DNA of 64,000 nucleotides, taken from NCBI GenBank assembly GCA_002842855.1, contig PHEE01000008.1:1-64000 (forward strand), written 5' to 3'. The position numbers and the translations under genes were made by a program. Source of the stretch: Alphaproteobacteria bacterium HGW-Alphaproteobacteria-4 (GTDB lineage Bacteria; Pseudomonadota; Alphaproteobacteria; Rhodobacterales; Rhodobacteraceae). Below, piece after piece: positions 4,118-56,574 of this stretch (position 1 is its first letter; each line of letters opens with the position of its first letter). The notes beneath the pieces were generated by a model. It was not told the origin of the DNA. It made no database searches and saw only the letters and a program-made list of their open reading frames with translations.

Positions 4118-4858
4118 GTGGCAGGCCATTCGAAATGGGCGAACATCCAGCACCGCAAGGGCAAGCAGGACAAGATCCGCGCCAAGGTGTTTTCCAAGCT
4201 CGCCAAGGAAATTACCGTGGCGGCCAAGATGGGCGACCCCGACCCAGCCAAGAACCCGCGCCTGCGGCTGGCGGTGAAAGAAGCCAAGGCTGTGTCGATG
4301 CCGAAAGACGTGATCGACCGCGCCATCAAGAAAAGCATCGGCGGCGATGCCGAAACCTATGACGAGATCCGCTATGAGGGCTACGGGCCGAACGGCATTG
4401 CCATTATCGTTGAGGCGATGACCGACAACCGCAACCGCACCGCCAGCAACGTGCGCAGCTATTTCACCAAATGCGGCGGTAACCTGGGCGAAACCGGCTC
4501 GGTTTCGTTCATGTTCGACCGGGTCGGCGAGATCATGTATCCGCTGGCCGTGGGCGACGCCGACACGCTGCTGCTGGCAGCGCTCGAGGCCGGCGCGGAC
4601 GATGTGGAAACCGACGAGGAAGGCCACTGGATCACTTGCGCGCAGGATGCGCTGAACGAGGTGACGACAGCGCTGGAAGCGGCGCTGGGCGAAAGCGAAA
4701 CCGCCAAGCTGATCTGGAAGCCGCAGAACCTGACCGTGGTCGATGCGGAAACCGCCGAGCGGCTGATGAAGCTGGTCGATATGTTGGAAGATGATGACGA
4801 CGTGCAGAACGTCACCGGCAACTTCGACATCCCCGAAGAAATCGCCGCCGCTCTATAA
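4118..4858 (+). CDS. yebC: YebC/PmpR-family protein
   Basis: A 246-residue member of the YebC/TACO1 family, recognised from the N-terminal [17 protein letters not shown] and the [15 protein letters not shown] region near the end. Family members have been described as DNA-binding transcription regulators and, more recently, as factors that help ribosomes past difficult sequences. The start is a GTG placed after CGGAG, giving the canonical N-terminus. The gene stands alone between the SLC13 permease and a convergent porin-like gene, with a shared hairpin terminator. Confidence 0.95.
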
Positions 4859-4876
4859 GAGCCGGGGCCACAAACG

Positions 4877-4905
4877 AAAGGGCCGCGTGGTTGGCGCGGC
4901 CCTTT
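4877..4905. terminator. Bidirectional terminator between yebC and a porin-like gene
   Basis: Arms AAAGGGCCGCG (4877-4887) and CGCGGCCCTTT (4895-4905) form a perfect 11-bp stem with a 7-base loop. A/T-rich ends on both sides suit termination of both convergent genes. The hairpin is almost exactly repeated at 5974-6000 behind the second porin-like gene. Confidence 0.85.
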
Positions 4906-4924
4906 GCATTTCAGGTGGCAAACC

Positions 4925-5836
4925 TCAGTAGTTCAGCTTCCAGCCGACATAAGCGGAAGTGACGCCGTTGCCGCCGCCACCGAAGCCGTCCAGATAGCCG
5001 ACACCGGCGTAGCCGTTTTTCAGGAAGCTGACTTCCGCGTTGACCGAGTAGAAATCGTCTGAGCTGCCAGCGGTGCCGTAACCTGCATTGAGCGTCAGCC
5101 AATCGAGAGGTTTATAGAAGGCGTCAACCAAGACCAGCAGATCCGACGACAGGTTGGCGTCGACCAGCGTAAGGTGGCCGCCGAACTGACCAGCGTCATA
5201 GCCGACCTGTGCAAGGTAGTTTCGAAGATCAGTCGACCCAGTGTTGATAGCTTCAAAGCCGACGGCGAAATCTAGCGCACCATAGTCACGGCCGAAGTAT
5301 CCGGTTACCGATGTCGCGTCGCTGGCCGAACCGGTGAATTGATGCACCGAAAGCCCGGCGTCAAATCCGCCGATGAAGCCATCGAAACGCGCGCCGTAGC
5401 TATGTGCTTCGCCATACACTTGCACGAAATCCGTTACGCCAATCGCTTCGCCAAAGATCAGTGACAGATATCTGGAGCCGCCAAAGCGGGGTATCTGGAT
5501 CGCGCTGCCCACCGCGGAACGCGGCGCGCCGACCGAGAAGCGGCCAACCGAGGTATCGACCCAGAAGGTCGGGAACAGAGCGGCGCGGTTGTCAAAGGGC
5601 CCTCCGCTATCGGAGGCGATGCCAAGCACGCCGAGCTCGAAGCCCATCGGCAGGCTGCTGCCGCCGCCAAAGCCGAAGCCAATGGCGAGATCGGCATAGG
5701 CAAAGCTCACGTCGCTGCCGTTGCTGCTCAGGTAGTCATACTGGACCGAGCCGCGTGTGTAGAGGTTGTTCGATTGCGCCGAGGCGGCGGTTGCCGCTGC
5801 CAGAACAAGTGCTGCCGTGAGTGCCGCGTGTTTCAT
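4925..5836 (-). CDS. Porin-like outer-membrane protein, copy 1
   Basis: A 303-residue protein with a signal peptide (MKHAALTAALVLAAATAASA, cleavage after ASA), followed by alternating aromatic and glycine-rich strands typical of a Gram-negative porin. It ends in GWKLNY, with Tyr rather than Phe as the last residue. ATG 5836 is used because the signal peptide begins there. It is a diverged tandem paralogue of the gene at 6020-6937, sharing the ends (FLKNGYAG... AYVGWKLNY) and strands such as GRDYGA-DFAVGFE. A role in solute diffusion across the outer membrane is inferred from fold only. Confidence 0.75.
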   Translation of the reverse strand: MKHAALTAALVLAAATAASAQSNNLYTRGSVQYDYLSSNGSDVSFAYADLAIGFGFGGGSSLPMGFELGVLGIASDSGGPFDNRAALFPTFWVDTSVGRFSVGAPRSAVGSAIQIPRFGGSRYLSLIFGEAIGVTDFVQVYGEAHSYGARFDGFIGGFDAGLSVHQFTGSASDATSVTGYFGRDYGALDFAVGFEAINTGSTDLRNYLAQVGYDAGQFGGHLTLVDANLSSDLLVLVDAFYKPLDWLTLNAGYGTAGSSDDFYSVNAEVSFLKNGYAGVGYLDGFGGGGNGVTSAYVGWKLNY

Positions 5837-5973
5837 GGGCCGATTCTCCGTGACGATGTGTCGCATTGCGACCAAGTTACCATGCCCGCGCCCCGCGGTC
5901 ATCGCGGCGCGCGCCGGCCCTGCGTAAATCTCGGCCGGTGTGTTTTTTTTGTCCGTTGCCGAAAAAGCCAAAT

Positions 5974-6000
5974 GGGGCCGCGCGGTTGGCGCGGCCCTTT
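5974..6000. terminator. Terminator of porin-like copy 2 (duplicate of the 4877 hairpin)
   Basis: Arms GGGCCGCG (5975-5982) and CGCGGCCC (5990-5997) flank a 7-base loop, and TTT follows. From 5975 on, about 74 bases match 4880-4953 with roughly one difference, covering the terminator, the spacer, the stop and the last codons. Confidence 0.8.
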
Positions 6001-6019
6001 GCATTTCAGGTGGCAAACC

Positions 6020-6937
6020 TCAGTAGTTCAGCTTCCAGCCGACATAGGCGGTGGTGATGCCGCTGGAGAAACCGTCGCCATCAAAGTAGCCGATACCGGC
6101 GTAGCCGTTTTTCAGGAAGCTCGCCTCGGCGTTGGCGCCGTATACAGCATAACTGGCGTAGTTTCCGTAGGATGCGGTAACCTTCAGCCAGTCGAGCGGC
6201 CGATAGAAGGCCTCGACCGAATAGGCACTGTCGGGCATCAAGAAACTGTCGCCGAGCGACACCCGCGCGCCATAGGTGCCCACATCATAGCCCAGCGTCG
6301 CGACGTAGGTGGTTTCGCTGTTGCCCTCGCCTTGCAGATGCTCAAAGCCCACCGCGAAATCGAAGGCGCCATAATCGCGCCCGACGAAGCCGGTCAGCGA
6401 GGTTCCATTGCCGTCCATGCCTTTGCCGCCAATGCCCCCAAGATGATGCCACGAAAGCCCGACGTCGAAGCCGTTGAAGTTGCCGTCATAGCGAAGCCCG
6501 TAGGAATCAACACCACCCTGCAGCACCGCCATGTCGGTGAAATTGAACGCTACCTGGATGTCATCGGTAAAATAGTAGGTGCCGGCAATCGGCGGCACCT
6601 TGATCCGGCTGGCCATCGCCGAGCGGGGCCGACCGAGCGAGAACTTGCCATAGGCGGTTTCAGCCCAGACCGTCGGGAACAGCGCCGACGTGCTGAAATC
6701 TTCCTGGGTGCTTCCCACCGCCAGCACACCGAGGTCGAACCCGACCGGGGTGCCGCCAAACGCGCCGCGCAAACCCAAGGCGAAATCGCCAAACCAAAAG
6801 TCAATCTCGTCCGCGCCCGAAAGATATTCGTATTGCACGAAACCATTGGCATAGAGCGGCGAACTGCCGCCCGATTGCGCGAAGGCCGCGCCCGAACCTG
6901 CCAGCAGAGCAACCATTGACAGTACAGTTTTCTTCAT
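6020..6937 (-). CDS. Porin-like outer-membrane protein, copy 2
   Basis: A 305-residue paralogue of copy 1: signal peptide MKKTVLSMVALLAGSGAAFA, then a beta-rich body and the same GWKLNY ending. ATG 6937 follows a purine-rich ribosome site (CAGGGGGCG). Both copies read in the same direction, and each has its own terminator and leader, so they can be expressed separately. Identity is high at the C-terminus and patchy in the middle, where surface loops of a barrel would lie. It is placed as porin-like by composition and by the paralogue; no substrate is implied. Confidence 0.75.
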   Translation of the reverse strand: MKKTVLSMVALLAGSGAAFAQSGGSSPLYANGFVQYEYLSGADEIDFWFGDFALGLRGAFGGTPVGFDLGVLAVGSTQEDFSTSALFPTVWAETAYGKFSLGRPRSAMASRIKVPPIAGTYYFTDDIQVAFNFTDMAVLQGGVDSYGLRYDGNFNGFDVGLSWHHLGGIGGKGMDGNGTSLTGFVGRDYGAFDFAVGFEHLQGEGNSETTYVATLGYDVGTYGARVSLGDSFLMPDSAYSVEAFYRPLDWLKVTASYGNYASYAVYGANAEASFLKNGYAGIGYFDGDGFSSGITTAYVGWKLNY

Positions 6938-7186
6938 TTTCGCCCCCTGACCGAAACCTGCATTACACGGAGAGATTTTAGCACGCATCGCCGGCCCGAT
7001 CACCCGTGCCCGGGGCATGTGCCGTGGAAAAGGCCGGGTGTGTGGCGGCGCTGCACCGGGCAGGCAGAGCGCAACAAATGCGTTGCGGGGCAGCTGGCTT
7101 TTGGCAGCGGCCCACGTGGCAATTGCACTGGCGCGCAAACCCGCTGCAGGCTAGGCAAGCGCCAAGACAACGGTGGCGGGCTGGAA

Positions 7187-7783
7187 ATGGCGGCATTCTG
7201 GGCGGGGCTGCGGCTGGGGCTGGGGTTGATCGTGGCGATCGGCGCGCAGAACGCCTTCGTGCTGCGCCAGGGCCTGCGGCGCGAACATGTGTTTGCGGTG
7301 GCGCTGTTCTGCGCGGCTTCCGACGCGGCGCTGATCGCGCTTGGCGTTTCGGGTTTTGCGCTCGCCTCCGATGCGGCACCCTGGCTTGGCCCGGCCCTGC
7401 GCTGGGGGGGCGTGGCGTTCCTGGCGTGGTATGGCGCGCGCGCCTTTCTGGCCGCATGGCGCGGCGGGTCGGGGCTGGTGGCGGCGGGTGGGGCGCAGAG
7501 CCTTGCCGCAACGCTTGCCACCATCGCCGCGCTGACCTGGGCCAACCCGCATGTCTGGCTCGATACGGTGGTGCTCTTGGGGGCGGTGTCGGCGCAGTTT
7601 CCGGGGCAGGGCGTTGCCTTTGCGGCGGGCGCCATCACCGCCTCGTTCGGCTTTTTCTTTTCACTGGCCTATGGCGCGCGGCTGCTGGCCCCGGTTTTCG
7701 AGCGGCCGCGCGCCTGGGTAGTGCTCGATATTCTGATCGGCCTGGTGATGTGGAGCATCGCGCTGCAACTGGCGCTTGGCTGA
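7187..7783 (+). CDS. LysE/ArgO-family amino-acid exporter
   Basis: A 198-residue hydrophobic protein with the LysE-family opening GLRLGLGLIVAIGAQNAFVLRQG (read in parts) and the ALTWANPHVWLDT motif in the middle, both typical of basic amino-acid exporters such as ArgO. About six membrane helices are expected. ATG 7187 is chosen because conservation starts there; the longer frame from 7019 is low-complexity. The 249-base gap upstream holds no other recognisable feature. The substrate (arginine or lysine) is inferred from family. Confidence 0.85.
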   Translation: MAAFWAGLRLGLGLIVAIGAQNAFVLRQGLRREHVFAVALFCAASDAALIALGVSGFALASDAAPWLGPALRWGGVAFLAWYGARAFLAAWRGGSGLVAAGGAQSLAATLATIAALTWANPHVWLDTVVLLGAVSAQFPGQGVAFAAGAITASFGFFFSLAYGARLLAPVFERPRAWVVLDILIGLVMWSIALQLALG

Positions 7784-7843
7784 GATGTGCCCGACACAAT
7801 CGCGCCCTTGCGCTGGCCTCGCCGATGCGGTGATCTCGCGGCC

Positions 7844-8758
7844 ATGAGCACCCGCGCCCCCGCCCGCCGCCCCGACCGCCCCGTTGCCGGCGTGCTCTGG
7901 ATGCTGGCGACCGGGCTCAACTTTGTCGCCGTCACCGGCATCGTGCGCTACCTTGGCACCGATCTGCCCGCCGCCCAGGGTGCGTTTATCCGCTTTGCCT
8001 TCGGTCTTGTCTTTCTCGCCCCCACACTGGCACTGACGCTGAAGCGCGGGCTTGCCCCCGGCGCGCTGCGCCTGTTCGTGGCGCGCGGCGCGCTGCATAC
8101 GGCGGCGGTGGTGCTTTGGTTCTACGCGATGGCGCGCATTCCGGTGGCTGAGGTCACGGCCATCGGCTACCTAAACCCGATCGTCGTGACGATCGGCGCC
8201 GCATTCCTGTTTGGCGAAAGGCTGGCGGCGCGGCGGATCATTGCCATTGCCGTCGCCATTGCCGGCGCGCTGATCGTGCTGCGCCCCGGCCTGCGCGAGA
8301 TCGTACCCGGCCATTGGTCGCAACTGGGCGCCGCCACCTGCTTTGGCCTCTCGTATCTGATCGCCAAGCGGCTATCCGAAATCGCCCCGGCGGGCGCGGT
8401 GGTGGCGATGATGGCGCTGACCGTTACGGTCGGGCTTGCGCCACTGGCGCTTTGGGTCTGGGTGCCGGTGGGGCTGGTGCAGGTGGCCTGGCTCGGCCTC
8501 GTCGCGGTGTTCGCCACGGCCGGTCACTATTGCATGACCCGCGCTTTCGCTGCGGCGCCGCTGACCGTGACGCAACCCGTCACCTTCCTGCAACTCGTCT
8601 GGGCCACGGCTTTGGGCGCGCTGATGTTCGGCGAGGCGGTGGACCCGATGGTGATGCTGGGTGGTGCGCTGATCATCGGTGCAATCAGCTACATCACCTG
8701 GCGCGAGGCGCAGATCAAGCGTCGCACCACCCCCTCTGCTGCGGTTCCTGAGGCCTGA
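7844..8758 (+). CDS. EamA/DMT-family permease
   Basis: A 304-residue ten-helix drug/metabolite transporter with two EamA repeats. It keeps the DLPAAQGAFIRFAFG and EVTAIGYLNPI motifs seen in RhaT/EamA exporters. ATG 7844 is used because the preceding in-frame codons look non-coding. The gene follows the LysE exporter in the same direction with a 60-base gap. A long inverted repeat right after its stop separates it from the choline uptake operon. Substrate unknown. Confidence 0.85.
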   Translation: MSTRAPARRPDRPVAGVLWMLATGLNFVAVTGIVRYLGTDLPAAQGAFIRFAFGLVFLAPTLALTLKRGLAPGALRLFVARGALHTAAVVLWFYAMARIPVAEVTAIGYLNPIVVTIGAAFLFGERLAARRIIAIAVAIAGALIVLRPGLREIVPGHWSQLGAATCFGLSYLIAKRLSEIAPAGAVVAMMALTVTVGLAPLALWVWVPVGLVQVAWLGLVAVFATAGHYCMTRAFAAAPLTVTQPVTFLQLVWATALGALMFGEAVDPMVMLGGALIIGAISYITWREAQIKRRTTPSAAVPEA

Positions 8759-8767
8759 GCCTCCGGC

Positions 8768-8816
8768 GGGGATATTTGGCCCAAGGCAAGCCCGTTGCCT
8801 TGGGCCAAATATCCCC
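8768..8816. terminator. Perfect 22-bp inverted repeat, bidirectional terminator
   Basis: Arms at 8768-8789 and 8795-8816 pair perfectly over 22 bases around the 5-base loop GCCCG. Each arm is a GGGGATATTTGGCCCAAGGC-type unit, so the structure is two copies of the window's intergenic repeat facing each other. It lies between two convergent genes (stops at 8758 and 8840), where a shared terminator is expected. Confidence 0.85.
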
Positions 8817-8839
8817 CGCGGAGCGTGCGCCCCGTGCCG

Positions 8840-9850
8840 CTAGCCGTGCGGGTCGATCAGTCGCGCCAGCACGCCCTCGCGGCTGATCATGCCGCCGCCT
8901 GCCACGTTCAATTCAGGCGACGTGGCAAGCAGTGCCATCACCGCGCGCACGGTGACGTCGGCTGCCACCTCGGGGGCGCCGGGGGCATGGCCGGGGTGCG
9001 CCACATCGGCAGCGGTCAGCACCCCCAACGGGTTCATGTGGGCCACGAAGTCGGCCACATAGGCGTTGGCGGGGGCGGCGATGATATCGCGCGCGGTGCC
9101 CGCCTGCACGACCCGACCGCCCTCCATCAAGGCAATTCGATTGCCGAGCTTGAACGCTTCGTCGAGGTCGTGCGAGACAAAGATGATGGTGCGCCGCAGC
9201 GTTTCCTGAAGCTCCAGCAACTCATCCTGTAACCGCGACCTGATCAGCGGGTCGAGCGCCGAAAACGGCTCGTCCATCAACAGGATCGGGGCGTCGGTTG
9301 CAAATGCGCGCGCCAGCCCCACACGCTGCTGCATGCCGCCGGACAACTCTCCGACCTTGCGCTCGGCCCAGTCGGCAAGGCCGACCAGCGCCAGCTGCTC
9401 ATCAACCTTTGCGCGCCGCTCGGCCACTTTCATGCCGGCAAGTTCCAGCCCGAGCCCGATGTTCTCGCGCACCGTCCGCCACGGCAAAAGCCCGAACGCC
9501 TGAAACACCATCGCCACCCGTGTCAGCCGCAGCCGCCGCAAGGTAGCGGCATCGGCGTGGGTGACGCTGACCATCTGGTCGCCGTCCGAAATCCGCACTT
9601 CGCCCCGGCAGACCGGGTTGAGCCCGTTGACCGCGCGCAGCAGCGTCGATTTGCCCGACCCCGAAAGCCCCATCAAAACCAGTATTTCGCCGGTGGCCAC
9701 GCTCAGGCTGCAATCATGCACCCCTAGTACCTGCCCGGTGGCAACCTTGATGTCTTCTCGGCTCTGACCCTCGTCCATCAGCGGCAGTGCTGCCTGCGGG
9801 TGTTCCCCAAACACGATCGAGACGCGGTCGAATTCGACGGCTACCGGCAT
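8840..9850 (-). CDS. choV: Choline ABC transporter ATP-binding protein
   Basis: A 336-residue ATPase of the proline/glycine-betaine/choline class: Walker A GLSGSGKSTLL, signature LSGGMQQRVGLARA, Walker B ILLMDEPFSALDP, then the H-loop (FVSHDLDEA). Residues beyond about 265 form a short regulatory tail rather than a full CBS pair. It energises import by ChoW and ChoX. ATG 9850 has a GGAG about 10 bases upstream inside choW; the TTG at 9856 is the less likely start. The choline assignment rests on ChoX features and the adjacent betIBA genes. Confidence 0.9.
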   Translation of the reverse strand: MPVAVEFDRVSIVFGEHPQAALPLMDEGQSREDIKVATGQVLGVHDCSLSVATGEILVLMGLSGSGKSTLLRAVNGLNPVCRGEVRISDGDQMVSVTHADAATLRRLRLTRVAMVFQAFGLLPWRTVRENIGLGLELAGMKVAERRAKVDEQLALVGLADWAERKVGELSGGMQQRVGLARAFATDAPILLMDEPFSALDPLIRSRLQDELLELQETLRRTIIFVSHDLDEAFKLGNRIALMEGGRVVQAGTARDIIAAPANAYVADFVAHMNPLGVLTAADVAHPGHAPGAPEVAADVTVRAVMALLATSPELNVAGGGMISREGVLARLIDPHG

Positions 9851-9852
9851 GC

Positions 9853-10683
9853 TCAACGCTCCATCCTGAGCATCCGGTCAAGGATGATCGCCACTACCAC
9901 GATGATGAAGCCCGCCTCGAACCCCAGCGATGTGTTGACCGAATTGAGCGCCCGCACTACCGGCACGCCAAGCCCCGAGGCGCCCACCAGCGCCGCGATC
10001 ACCACCATCGAAAGCGACAGCATGATGGTCTGGTTCAGCCCCGCCATGATCTGCGGCAGCGCATAGGGCAGTTCTACCTTCCAAAGCACCTGCCGCGGCG
10101 TGCCGCCAAAGGCGGTGGCGGCTTCCAGCAGCGGTTGCGGTGTCGAGACGATGCCCAGATGCGTGAGCCGGATCGGGGCGGGCAGCACGAAGATCACCGT
10201 GGCAATCAGCCCCGGCACCATGCCGATGCCGAAAAACACGATCGCCGGAATGAGATAGACGAAGGTCGGCAGCGTCTGCATGAGATCGAGCACCGGGCGA
10301 AGCGCCGCGAAAAGGCGCGGCCGGTGCGCGGCCGCAATTCCGATCGGCACCCCCACCGCCATGCACACGACGCAGGCCGAAAGCACCAGCGTCAGGCTTT
10401 CGGTGGTGGCCTTCCAGTAGCCCTGGTTGAGAATGAACAGGAACCCCGTCAGCACCAGCGCCGCTGTCCTCCAGTTGCGCTGCAAACCCCATGTGACCGC
10501 CACGAACAGCGCCACGGTCACCAGCGGGTTCGGCGTCTGCAACAGCCACAGGATACCATCGATCAGCGCCTGCATGACGTTCGAGATAGCGTCGAAAAAG
10601 CCGCCCGCGTGGGCTTTTAGCCAATCGAACACCAGCTTGGCGGTTCTGCCCACCGGCAACTTGTAGGCGGTCAGCCAGTCCAT
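9853..10683 (-). CDS. choW: Choline ABC transporter permease
   Basis: A 276-residue inner-membrane permease of the ProW/ChoW type, with about six helices and the binding-protein-dependent transport loop region (ALPQIMAGLNQTIMLSLSM, in part) near residue 215. The stop is two bases before the choV start, so the pair is translationally close. A GC-rich hairpin repeat separates it from choX upstream. Choline specificity comes from context: glycine betaine and proline permeases look similar. Confidence 0.88.
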   Translation of the reverse strand: MDWLTAYKLPVGRTAKLVFDWLKAHAGGFFDAISNVMQALIDGILWLLQTPNPLVTVALFVAVTWGLQRNWRTAALVLTGFLFILNQGYWKATTESLTLVLSACVVCMAVGVPIGIAAAHRPRLFAALRPVLDLMQTLPTFVYLIPAIVFFGIGMVPGLIATVIFVLPAPIRLTHLGIVSTPQPLLEAATAFGGTPRQVLWKVELPYALPQIMAGLNQTIMLSLSMVVIAALVGASGLGVPVVRALNSVNTSLGFEAGFIIVVVAIILDRMLRMER

Positions 10684-52784: not shown

Positions 52785-53213
52785 CTACCAGTGCCCTGTG
52801 TTGCCCATGCTGGCCCAAGGTTCGGCGGGTCTCTTTGCGGCGCCGTTCTGCAAAAGCTCGATCGAGATGTTGTCGGGGCTGCGCACGAAGGCCATGCGGC
52901 CATCACGCGGCGGTCGGTTGATCGTCACGCCATGCGCCGCCAGATGCGCGCAGGTGGCGTAGATGTCATCGACACCATAGGCGAGATGGCCAAAATGGCG
53001 GCTGTCAGAGGGCAAGCCGGCGTCGCCATCCCAGTTCCAGGTCAGTTCAAGGGCGGCATCCTCTTGCCCCAGCGGCGCGAGGTAGACCAGCGTGAAGCGT
53101 CCTTGCGGGTTTTCGTGGCGCCGGACCTCTTGCAGCCCCAACAGCGCGTAGAACGCCATCGAGGCTTCGAGGTCGAGCACCCGAACCATTACATGCAGAT
53201 AGCGCAAAGCCAT
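52785..53213 (-). CDS. gloA: Glyoxalase I
   Basis: A 142-residue lactoylglutathione lyase of the Ni-dependent GloA type, with all four metal ligands in place: His7, Glu56 (ALELTWNW), His76 (HFGHLAYGVDD) and Glu119 (ISIELLQ). It converts the methylglyoxal-glutathione adduct to S-lactoylglutathione in the cytosol. ATG 53213 gives the common MALRYLHVM start. A hairpin-poor gap separates it from the MarR gene; a partial repeat (CCCCCGAAGGTATCTG) is at about 52753. Confidence 0.9.
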   Translation of the reverse strand: MALRYLHVMVRVLDLEASMAFYALLGLQEVRRHENPQGRFTLVYLAPLGQEDAALELTWNWDGDAGLPSDSRHFGHLAYGVDDIYATCAHLAAHGVTINRPPRDGRMAFVRSPDNISIELLQNGAAKRPAEPWASMGNTGHW

Positions 53214-53270
53214 GTCAGTCTCCTGTGTTCGGGGCCAGTCTAGCGTGCCGGGCGGCAACATGGAACCGCC

Positions 53271-54656
53271 TCAGAAGTTCGAGCGGAAGCCAATGCTGAC
53301 CGACAGCTCGCGCCGCTCGAAGCTTGAAACGTTCGAGCGGGTTTCAAGCGCGCGCAGTTTGACCTGCGGCGCAAACCCGGCGTAGCTGGCGTTTGGAAGC
53401 CACAGGTCGAGTTCGGCGAAGCCGAGCGTTTCCTGCCGCCCGCCGGGAACCGAGATAAAGCCGAGAGTGTAGTCGGGGAAGTCGGAATAGCTCAGCCCGA
53501 ACGACGCGGAAAGCCCGACCGGGCCGATCTGGCGCGCGGGTTGCACGCTGATTTGGGCCGACACGGCGTCGCCGCGCGCGTTGGCGCGGTCGGCTTCGAC
53601 GTGCCGCAGACCGAGGCTGAGGGTGAAGCCGGTGCCATTGCTGGCGACGCCACGCCAGCCGCCGCGAAGCGACGCGATCGACTGGTCGCGCCCCGTGCCG
53701 GGTGCGGCCCGCTGCTCAAACCCCGCGCCATAGAAAAACCCGTGTCCTGCTGGGCTGCGGTCGGCCCCGAGTCGCAGGTAATCATAGGCCACGGCACCCG
53801 CCGACCACGCCCGCCCCGCCGCAAGGTCAAGCGCAACGCTGCCGCCCTTCGCCGGGGTGGCGATACTGTGCCGCAGACCCAGTTCGGCGGAGCTGGCGCC
53901 AAAGCTGCTGTTGCTAATTTCGGTCTCAACAATCTCGCCCGATGGGCCCCGGGTTTCGGTGGTGGGCCTGCCCTCCAGCTCGACCGCGCGCAGCCCCAGG
54001 CTTAGCGACACCTGCGTTTCGCTGGCCTCGGTGCGGCGCAGCCGGTAACCGAGCCGCGCATCAAGCGTGCCGACCACGCCCGGCAGCGCCATTGCATCAT
54101 CGCTGAGCAAACCGGTCAGCGGCACCCCGTCGATCACGTTGTGACGAGAACTCGCACCCGCGTTGACGTTGCTTGAAGGCTGGATGCCGAACCGCAGCTG
54201 CGCGCTCCACGGCGTGGCGGCACGCAACGCGGCCAGCGCGCGTTCGGCGCCCGCGCGGCGCGTGGGGTCGGGTGCGGCATCGGCGGCGTGGCGCAGCCAG
54301 TAGCGCGCCAGCAGCGGCTTGTCGCCCTGCAAGGCTGCGGTCGCCACAAGACGCGCGGATTCGTGCTTTTGCACCTTGCTGCCCGCGGCATGAAACGCGC
54401 CTTGCCCGGCCTGCATCGCCTCGCGCGGGTGGCCCTGCCAAAGCATCACCGTGCCGATCACATATTGCGCAAAGGCATCGCCCGGGCTGACCCTTAGGAT
54501 CGCCCGCGCCAGTTCCAGCGCCTCGGCGTGGCGGCCCGCGCTGGCAGCGGCAAGCGCGGCGATCTGCGCCTGCCCCAGGTCAATCGAGGCCGCCCGCGCC
54601 GGGGCAGCCGCCAGCAAGACGGCCACCAGCCCTGCCGCGATGCGCCTGGCGATCAC
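53271..54656 (-). CDS. Slam-like outer-membrane protein (DUF560 barrel with TPRs)
   Basis: A 461-residue protein with a signal peptide (about 22 residues, ending ARAA), a TPR-like helical part (about 30-150) and a C-terminal beta-barrel (about 165-461) ending in SIGFRSNF with terminal Phe. The barrel opens with the PSSNVNAG box typical of DUF560/Slam. Slams move lipoproteins to the cell surface. A GTG start is used. The gene right upstream encodes a lipoprotein with a TbpB-like barrel pattern, its probable client, eight bases away on the same strand. Confidence 0.78.
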   Translation of the reverse strand: MIARRIAAGLVAVLLAAAPARAASIDLGQAQIAALAAASAGRHAEALELARAILRVSPGDAFAQYVIGTVMLWQGHPREAMQAGQGAFHAAGSKVQKHESARLVATAALQGDKPLLARYWLRHAADAAPDPTRRAGAERALAALRAATPWSAQLRFGIQPSSNVNAGASSRHNVIDGVPLTGLLSDDAMALPGVVGTLDARLGYRLRRTEASETQVSLSLGLRAVELEGRPTTETRGPSGEIVETEISNSSFGASSAELGLRHSIATPAKGGSVALDLAAGRAWSAGAVAYDYLRLGADRSPAGHGFFYGAGFEQRAAPGTGRDQSIASLRGGWRGVASNGTGFTLSLGLRHVEADRANARGDAVSAQISVQPARQIGPVGLSASFGLSYSDFPDYTLGFISVPGGRQETLGFAELDLWLPNASYAGFAPQVKLRALETRSNVSSFERRELSVSIGFRSNF

Positions 54657-54663
54657 CCCGCGC

Positions 54664-55596
54664 TCATGGGAACGGCGCGACCTGCGTGCAGACCGGCAGG
54701 GTGTTGTTCGGCCCGCACTGGGTCAGCACGAACACGCCGTGTTCGCGCTCGTTTTGCCAGTCCTTGTTGAATTCGTCGAGGTTCACGAGGCCCGCGAGCG
54801 AATTGGCCCCGACCCCGCCAAAGATGCCGCCGTAAACGCCGACCCCCGTGTTGTTACCGTCATTGTATTCAGCGCCACCGAGGAATGTGCCGTCGGCGGC
54901 GATGCCGGCACGCACCAGCACGATGTCGGCCAAGGGCAGGCTCTGGTCGATCAGCACGCGATTGTAGATTGCGCCATTGATCGAATCGTCAAGGAAGTTG
55001 ACGTTGAAGAAGATGTCGCCCGAAACCCGGCTCGATTGCGCCGGTATGAGCACCGGGTCGGTTCCGGACAGCACCGGCTTGGCCACATCGGTCGGGCTGC
55101 CGCGCACCACATCGACATTGGTGACCGCCGCATAGCTGCCCGCGTAGGAAACCTGCCCCGCCCCCGGCCCGGTGCCGATGGCCGGCCGCTGAAAGTCGCC
55201 GGTGCGCGCATAGACCCCGCCGCCGAAGTATCTGTTGAACTGGCCGCCATCAGCGACCGTGCTGGCACGCAGCGAACCATCGTCGCTTTGCCTGGCAAGT
55301 GCCACGAACAGCCGGTCAAGCGCATCTTCCTGGATCATGAAGGCGATGTAGCCGCCGGTATCGAGCAATGGCACACGTTCGTAGTCGACAAGGCGAGGTG
55401 TCGAATCCAGATAATTGATGTTCACCTGCAAGGTCGTGCCGTTGAAGATGATCTCGTTCACATTGACCTTGAGCGCTGCGGGGGTTGCCGGGCTGGTGCC
55501 GGGCGTGACGCCACCGCCACCGCCGTCAGTGCCCTCATCGGTGCTGCAAGCACCCAATGCGACCGCTGCCAGCAACGGCACCCAGAATCTTGACAT
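54664..55596 (-). CDS. Probable surface lipoprotein (TbpB-like barrel), Slam partner
   Basis: A 310-residue lipoprotein: lipobox LGAC (Cys17) after [17 protein letters not shown], a Gly/Thr/Pro-rich linker, then beta-rich repeats with a closing [20 protein letters not shown] box like the barrel hairpin of TbpB-type proteins (YGGFYGP-like). One Cys pair lies near the end ([13 protein letters not shown]). ATG 55596 follows GGGAG. With the Slam-like gene next, surface display is likely; ligand (iron carrier, haem or other) is unknown. The opposite-strand thyX gene begins 72 bases away. Confidence 0.7.
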
Positions 55597-55668
55597 TATG
55601 CACTCCCGTGCCCAGAAAACCGCTTCCAACATGAGAGTAGCGCTGATTCTGTCACCCCGGAGGGCACC

Positions 55669-56574
55669 ATGCCGCTTACCCCCGAACAGGCCGCCGAGAT
55701 TGCCGAGGCCCGCACCACCCCGCGCCCCACGTTGCGGGCCACATCGCCCGGGATGGAGGCCGAGCTTTATGTTGCGCACGAAATCCTCGACCACGGCCTG
55801 CTGCGGGTGATCGACTACATGGGCGACGATGCCGCTATCTGTCAGGCCGCGCGCGTCTCATATGGGCGCGGCACCAAGGCGGTGACCGATGATCGGGGCC
55901 TGATCCGCTACCTCATGCGGCACTGGCACTCGACCCCGTTCGAGATGTGCGAGGTCAAGTTTCACGTTAAACTACCTGTCTTCGTGGCGCGCCAGTGGAT
56001 CCGCCACCGCACCGCCAACGTCAACGAATACTCGGCCCGCTATTCGATTCTCGACCGCGAGTTCTACATTCCGGCGCCCGAAAACCTCGCTGCGCAATCG
56101 GTCGTGAACAATCAGGGTCGGGGGGAATTGCTTGAGGGCGACGAGGCGCAGCGGGTGCTCGATCTCTTGCGCGATGATGCGATGCGCAGTTTCGACCATT
56201 ACGAGGGCATGCTCAGCCAGGATGGGCAAAAAGGCCTCGCGCGCGAATTGGCGCGCATGAACCTTCCGATGAACACCTATACCCAATGGTACTGGAAAAC
56301 CGACCTGCACAATCTTTTTCACTTTCTGCGCCTGCGCGCCGATACCCATGCGCAATACGAAATCCGGGTTTATGCCGAGAAGATGTGCGAGATTACCCGT
56401 GCCTGGGTGCCGCTCGCCTACGGTGCCTTTGAAGATTACCGGCTGGGCGGGGTGAACCTTTCGGCCCGCGCAAAAGAGGTGCTGCAACGGCGGCTGCGCG
56501 GCGAAGTGGTGACGCAAGAGATGAGCGGCATGAGCAAGGGCGAGTGGCGCGAGTTTCAGGCCGAATGGGGGTAA
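55669..56574 (+). CDS. thyX: FAD-dependent thymidylate synthase
   Basis: A 301-residue ThyX with the signature RHR-x7-S ([11 protein letters not shown]), the dUMP/FAD binding [11 protein letters not shown], and [19 protein letters not shown] near residue 205. It makes dTMP from dUMP using methylene-THF as carbon donor and FADH2 as reductant. The start follows GGAGGGC. No thyA is in the window, so it may be the main thymidylate synthase. Confidence 0.95.

Follow-up and report, generated by a model that had tools for sequence, protein, structure and literature searches.

A predicted Slam-type cargo and exporter gene pair at the thyX/glyoxalase locus of Rhodobacterales

Slam proteins of the type XI secretion system (T11SS) place lipoproteins on the bacterial surface. 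For the Slam1/TbpB pair, the account given in PMC9090332 comprises Sec export and lipidation of the lipoprotein, and a chaperone that holds the cargo unfolded before it traverses the Slam barrel and folds outside the cell.

In Rhodobacteraceae/Roseobacteraceae, a locus made up of ThyX, a barrel lipoprotein, a T11SS protein and a glyoxalase has been described (Grossman et al., 2025, PMC12282271). According to that survey, a barrel lipoprotein is present in 10 of the 11 hand-annotated loci of cluster 3 and the TbpBBD domain in 8 of the 145 loci of that cluster; a change of cargo class was put forward as a possibility. In the passages that deal with aquatic cluster 3 T11SS, the cargo is left open and new targeting domains are suggested (PMC12282271). 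A search of the open-access literature returned no experimental work on a Slam pair of Rhodobacterales.

Here, we analyse such a pair in a stretch of 64,000 nucleotides from an alphaproteobacterium of the family Rhodobacteraceae (HGW-Alphaproteobacteria-4, contig PHEE01000008.1), hereafter called the window. The initial annotation had treated the pair as an unusual alphaproteobacterial case; this implied novelty has to be given up, the same locus having been described in 2025 (PMC12282271). It is very probable that the two genes form a self-contained Slam / type XI (T11SS) surface-display module. From taxonomy and shared gene order, the exporter would be a T11SS protein of SSN cluster 3.

The gene pair and its intergenic region

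On the minus strand of the window, the gene of a 310-aa lipoprotein is followed, 7 bases on, by that of a 461-aa exporter. The cargo ORF starts with an ATG at 55596 and its stop ends at 54664; the exporter ORF starts with a GTG at 54656 and its stop ends at 53271. Both ORFs have the coordinates first assigned to them, while the spacing, initially given as eight bases, is 7 when counted. The thyX gene lies upstream of the cargo gene and is divergent from it, and a glyoxalase-superfamily gene lies downstream of the exporter.

54664..55596, minus strand: cargo, predicted T11SS/Slam surface lipoprotein with TbpB/fHbp fold, 310 aa (ORF, Pfam/NCBIfam, model)
53271..54656, minus strand: exporter, Slam / SlipAM (DUF560, T11SS) outer-membrane protein, 461 aa (ORF, Pfam, profile-profile comparison, model)
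55669..56574, plus strand: thyX, flavin-dependent thymidylate synthase, backbone flank (Pfam, recurs in relatives)
52785..53261, minus strand: glyoxalase-superfamily gene (gloA-like), backbone flank (Pfam, recurs in relatives)
55597..55668, unstranded: thyX/cargo intergenic region, 72 bp, without a TTGAC promoter-like element (alignment and scans)

The gene order extends to a MarR-type regulator, an HTH protein and an aminotransferase, and it recurs in related genomes. The window's genome assembly (59 contigs, 93% estimated completeness) carries one OmpH/Skp-family gene. The only TonB plug domain detected in it is on contig 35, outside the window, in agreement with the earlier remark that no transferrin-type receptor is visible.

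The gap between thyX and the cargo gene measures 72 bp in the window vs. 172-347 bp in 52 other loci. A TTGAC element directed toward the cargo gene is found in 51 of these 52 loci (shuffled mean 8, maximum 15), and in 50 of those it lies 40-110 bp before the cargo start. The window gap contains no TTGAC; aligned with its three closest relatives, it is short of a block of about 100 bp in which the element lies. A consensus scan of positions 55400-55900, a search to which other promoter types are invisible, returned no promoter-like site. As the window copy has no such TTGAC element, expression in the window strain is doubtful. These observations favour a reading in which the pair is no longer expressed: its promoter would have gone with a deletion of about 100 bp, and the still-open genes would be in the course of loss. 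We regard this as possible but unlikely: both frames are open and conserved as in relatives, the scan covers one type of promoter, and a loss here would also hit thyX, a usually important gene that starts from this stretch. Furthermore, with 59 contigs and 93% estimated completeness, a local assembly fault at this gap is possible. In the window strain, either the promoter has been lost, or another one is used, or the assembly is faulty here. Apart from this question, both divergent genes, thyX as well as the cargo gene, may be affected by the missing 100 bp or so.

Cargo, pairing and genomic site

The cargo displays four parts.

55546..55557, minus strand: lipobox LGAC, residues 14-17 (Cys17 invariant in 64/64 aligned sequences)
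55462..55545, minus strand: Gly/Asp/Thr-rich tether, residues 18-45 (model confidence low in its first part)
55204..55461, minus strand: N-terminal beta domain, residues 46-131, presumed effector/handle part (model)
54718..55155, minus strand: eight-stranded barrel domain, residues 148-293 (model; TbpB_B_D at residues 144-278)

Relatives were gathered as 70 named Rhodobacterales-type loci with two peptide patterns derived from window-like proteins, a selection that does not sample the family at random. The cargo alignment (A3) has 64 rows, the window and 63 others. L103, L105, L106 and L120, where the cargo is divergent or its start unclear, were omitted from it, as were L099, L110 and L112.

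The lipoprotein with its LGAC lipobox is thus borne out by the ORF and by the invariance of Cys17 in these 64 sequences. Likewise, the GVYGGIFGG hairpin pointed out at the start is located between strands E251-260 and E266-274 of the modelled barrel, with Gly253 and Gly261 invariant. With standard profiles, the sole Pfam match of the window cargo is TbpB_B_D (18.3 bits, cut-off 26, residues 144-278), and NCBIfam slam_lipo gives an E value of 4e-4 (20.7 bits vs. a cut-off of 80). Lipoprotein barrel profiles therefore do match, as proposed, but always under the curated Pfam/NCBIfam cut-offs. The profile of the cargo family matches fHbp chains with E 0.003; a search of solved structures with the single cargo protein gave nothing useful. 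The predicted structure (pLDDT 90.8, pTM 0.86) consists of a disordered tether, the N-terminal domain and the barrel. All of the 50 matches listed by VIA-align are fHbp, haemophilin/HphA, NHBA, HpuA, TbpB or LbpB, with Z scores of 16.7 for fHbp, 14.2 for haemophilin, 13.3 for NHBA, 11.9 for HpuA and 11.6 for TbpB.

The description as a TbpB-like lipoprotein is therefore backed, as far as the fold goes, by the predicted structure and by the conserved pairing with the exporter. TbpB proper was rejected: the protein has 310 aa and one barrel, and lacks two lobes with TbpB_A/TbpB_C handles. Moreover, no TbpA-type TonB-dependent receptor was detected in the window. Among the 64 cargo sequences, the mean majority fraction is 0.50 in the N-terminal domain and 0.48 in the barrel. 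As the former is conserved about as well as the latter, the sampled cargos look, from their alignment, like a single protein family and not like a common barrel carrying exchanged heads.

What the cargo may bind is a separate matter. In most characterised Slam systems the cargo serves metal or haem acquisition, and a haemophore-like or metal-carrier-binding surface protein could be envisaged here. Indeed, the predicted structure matches haemophilin 6om5 over its whole length (Z 14.2, 197 aligned, rmsd 3.6) and also TbpB, and iron uptake is often served by known T11SS cargo (PMC12282271). Such a role nevertheless appears improbable to us, given that the one TonB plug detected in the genome is on another contig, that 28 of the 64 cargos have 0 or 1 histidine, and that metal and haem genes are missing from the cluster 3 neighbourhoods reported by Grossman et al. 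(PMC12282271). Iron boxes upstream of the loci show no clear enrichment either. In scans of 53 loci with consensus sequences, Irr-like scores of at least 9 occurred in 10 loci vs. 5 of 53 shuffled, iron-rhodo boxes in 11 vs. 14, and Fur-like scores of at least 11 in 13 vs. 17. Iron or haem capture by the cargo is possible, though unsupported.

Pairing is nearly constant among the gathered loci. Once L099 and L110 are set aside, because their contigs end within the cargo region, 67 of the 68 assessable loci carry a lipoprotein gene beside that of the exporter. Our script called a lipobox ORF upstream of the exporter in 66 of the 70 loci. L106 was added by eye, its lipobox lying in an open frame without a preceding ATG, GTG or TTG, and in L105 the script's start was wrong, the true lipobox being upstream in the same frame. 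The exception is Silicimonas algicola (L112), where thyX lies directly against the exporter with no cargo between (4892-7323), and where a family profile search of the genome found no cargo relative elsewhere. In L103, a 196-aa lipoprotein with a weak FHBP_C match (E 0.013) occupies the cargo position (5337-5927) and is possibly a reduced cargo.

Standard searches recover few of these cargos. At E<=0.001, Pfam TbpB_B_D matches 8 of the 64 aligned cargos and FHBP_C 5 of 64; slam_lipo matches 17 of 64. A single-protein cargo search was positive in 11 of 61 genomes, overlooking cargos visible on inspection. Because the adjacent lipoprotein is there in 67 of 68 loci although TbpB_B_D sees 8 of 64, barrel cargo probably seems rare in print for want of search sensitivity, and of the two options named in the survey our own counts favour cargo below the detection threshold over a changed cargo class. 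For the sampled subfamily the answer would thus be simpler: nearly every exporter adjoins a TbpB/fHbp-fold lipoprotein that standard profiles miss.

As judged from sequence distances, cargo and exporter diverge together. In the 47 loci with all four genes, their distances correlate with a coefficient of 0.646, and the partial correlation given the ThyX and glyoxalase distances is 0.634, with 0 of 999 permutations as high, a test that removes shared ancestry incompletely, so that clade structure may inflate the value. The cargo correlates with either flank, given the rest, at -0.08 and -0.09. Mean distances are 0.645 for the cargo and 0.662 for the exporter vs. 0.195 for ThyX and 0.241 for glyoxalase.

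The 2025 paper also allows the DUF1194 proteins, instead of the lipoprotein, to be the main cargo of these exporters. DUF1194 (MIDAS) genes are close to the exporter in 44 of the 64 loci with 3 kb of downstream sequence, and in 102 of 145 loci of the survey (PMC12282271). However, the lipoprotein is more constant (67/68), and the locus lacks DUF1194 in the window and in its three closest relatives, which leaves this view very unlikely. DUF1194 was likewise not detected in the window's genome, an empty search answer that carries little weight alone, and it was rejected as the defining partner. As a side observation, L107 carries three MIDAS-motif DUF1194-type ORFs in a row after the glyoxalase gene (7830-9995), several other loci having one or two.

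The genomic site was followed in 37 genomes of the family, the window's own and 36 others. The exporter is at the ThyX/glyoxalase locus in 20 of them, the window's own included. In 17, it lies between the two flanking genes on one contig, with these 2407-3054 bp apart, and in 3 it lies beside one flank (G005, G029, G034). A matching ORF is directly upstream of the exporter in 20/20 of these genomes, counting L050, whose lipobox is out of frame with the body. This copy (4806-5711), with its lipobox signal peptide and body in different frames, reflects either decay or a sequencing error. In 9 of the 37 genomes, 60-257 bp separate ThyX and glyoxalase, and neither exporter nor cargo was found. Genomes were called pair-free from single-protein searches (E<=0.001), and a divergent pair elsewhere in them is possible. 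Among the remaining genomes, the gap is filled by a DUF817 gene in one (L135, 2093-2986) and by a PhoX phosphatase gene in another (L137, 1725-3815), so that it looks like a variable site. One genome has a gap of 566 bp without a large gene, in two the flanking genes fall on different contigs, two give no match for either flank, and G028 has a weak exporter match away from the locus. Judging from these gene contents, the two genes of the pair either occur together or are both missing in the 37 genomes sampled.

Among the gathered loci, thyX is found in 53 of the 67 with 1.5 kb upstream and glyoxalase in 61 of the 64 with 3 kb downstream. Nevertheless, as ThyX and glyoxalase adjoin each other in genomes without the pair, their co-occurrence with T11SS need not mean a shared pathway. 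We lean, by a small margin over even, toward the view that the T11SS of Rhodobacterales is a stand-alone two-gene cassette, an fHbp/TbpB-fold lipoprotein with its own Slam, that would be gained and lost as a unit between thyX and glyoxalase, both genes evolving fast together and without a TonB receptor. The cargo class would then have been neither changed nor lost, ThyX and glyoxalase would be a mere address, and the surface role would be receptor-independent (contact, shielding, phage/host interaction). If this is true, the printed folate or aldehyde hints drawn from ThyX and glyoxalase reflect the address only. In any case, function should not be read from these two neighbours.

The exporter family

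The exporter combines helices and a barrel.

54216..54578, minus strand: periplasmic TPR domain, residues 27-147 (model, TPR structure matches)
53274..54209, minus strand: 14-stranded barrel, residues 150-461 (model; CymA and OmpG matches)
54162..54173, minus strand: SNVN box, residues 162-165 (Asn163 and Asn165 invariant)

Alone, the window protein matches SlipAM (PF04575) at 13.4 bits, under the cut-off of 22 and over residues 405-461 only, along with weak TPR matches. A SlipAM search of the window's whole genome gave no match, its own controls being likewise unmatched. Relatives are better recognized, since SlipAM matches 16 of 19 at E<=0.1 (best 1.9e-10) and 13 of 42 at E<=0.001 (best 3.2e-12). 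We therefore compared a profile of 42 exporters with 14 canonical SlipAM proteins, chosen for scores well over the Pfam cut-off, and obtained an hhalign probability of 99.9% (E 1e-33, 411 columns, 15% identity). With the barrel only, the alignment with SlipAM runs end to end (E 3.7e-35), while the controls fail (2.0% for the reversed barrel, 0.03-0.16% for five column-shuffled barrels). Hence, the proposed PF04575 match stays sub-threshold for the single sequence and is recovered by the family profile. The SNVN box is real, both Asn163 and Asn165 being invariant in the 19-sequence and in the 42-sequence exporter alignments. In the corresponding N-x-N of the 14 canonical SlipAM proteins, Asn203 is invariant and Asn205 nearly so.

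The AlphaFold model of the exporter (pLDDT 91.6, pTM 0.79) has TPR helices at residues 27-147 and 14 long strands at residues 150-459 (DSSP). Against the PDB, Z scores of 17-21 are reached by TPR domains for the helices and by the 14-stranded CymA and OmpG for the barrel; no solved Slam is among the matches listed. A search of solved structures with the single exporter protein returned TPR designs only, and the exporter profile matched PDB sequences over the TPR part in the best 60 of 100 matches. A function in polysaccharide export, as a porin of the PgaA/BcsC/PelB kind that likewise has TPR plus barrel, is what the first Foldseek rows (BcsC, PelB, a polysaccharide secretin, with porins also present) and the PgaA model TIGR03939 (E 0.02) might suggest. 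It is extremely improbable and was rejected, since the PgaA match is limited to TPR residues 31-83, the barrel aligns with SlipAM, and among the immediate neighbours, which are ThyX, the lipoprotein, glyoxalase and regulators, no gene of glycan synthesis was identified. Membership of the exporter family in Slam/SlipAM is supported at the level of sequence profiles. Because profile-profile comparison, predicted structures and conserved pairing agree, the exporter is best read as Slam-like, with the TPR plus barrel architecture first proposed for it.

Display mechanism and comparison with known systems

By analogy with Slam1/TbpB, the cargo lipoprotein would cross the inner membrane by Sec, be lipidated at Cys17 and be brought to the outer membrane. 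It would be kept unfolded by a chaperone of the periplasm, for example Skp, and the exporter would act as a TPR-plus-14-strand-barrel translocon that recognises the C-terminal eight-stranded barrel of the cargo and passes the protein outward, so that it folds on the cell surface (steps modelled on the account in PMC9090332). Once displayed, the cargo would hang on its flexible tether with the N-terminal domain outward.

The gene pair, the lipobox, the fold, the exporter family, the pairing, the joint divergence and the Skp-family gene are read directly from sequence or model; translocation, surface exposure and the order of steps would follow from an anatomy that fits each step. The display module is favoured because the SlipAM profile match, both models, the pairing in 67 of 68 loci, the joint divergence, the slam_lipo match and the Skp-family gene all point to it. 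Against it, the window proteins fall under every curated cut-off, the window copy is without the TTGAC element, the exporter of L112 has no adjacent cargo and none was found elsewhere in that genome, no Slam is among the PDB rows listed, and the top Foldseek rows are polysaccharide-export barrels and porins. As to function, our guess, much less certain than the display mechanism, is that the cargo is a surface binding or contact protein working without a TonB receptor.

Among described systems, the marine cluster 3 T11SS locus, as presented in PMC12282271, resembles the window in having ThyX, a lipoprotein with a predicted eight-stranded barrel, the exporter and glyoxalase, without TonB partners. 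The window differs from it by the absence of DUF1194 and by its shortened intergenic promoter region. The survey's count of TbpBBD (8/145; PMC12282271) stands against 67 of 68 loci with a lipoprotein beside the exporter here, the two being counts on different samples. The neisserial pairs Slam1/TbpB and Slam2/HpuA, as described in PMC9090332 and PMC5449769, share with the window a TPR domain followed by a 14-stranded DUF560 barrel, and a lipobox cargo, often adjacent, with a C-terminal eight-stranded barrel. In contrast, the window cargo has one barrel and not two lobes, no TonB receptor lies beside the pair, and identity in the profile alignment is 15%. Over both N-terminal domain and barrel, the cargo model comes closest to factor H binding protein (fHbp) and haemophilin/HphA among the structures listed, with 13-17% identity in those rows; the likeness is one of predicted fold.

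With dozens of cargo-exporter pairs now named, several of them from Rhodobacterales in culture, and with the empty sites as natural controls, surface display and function become testable in harmless bacteria. The window pair is a real member of a known system, one that earlier work has already reported from this group of bacteria; the present analysis adds a near-universal cargo in the sampled subfamily, naturally empty sites, joint divergence and a shortened promoter region.
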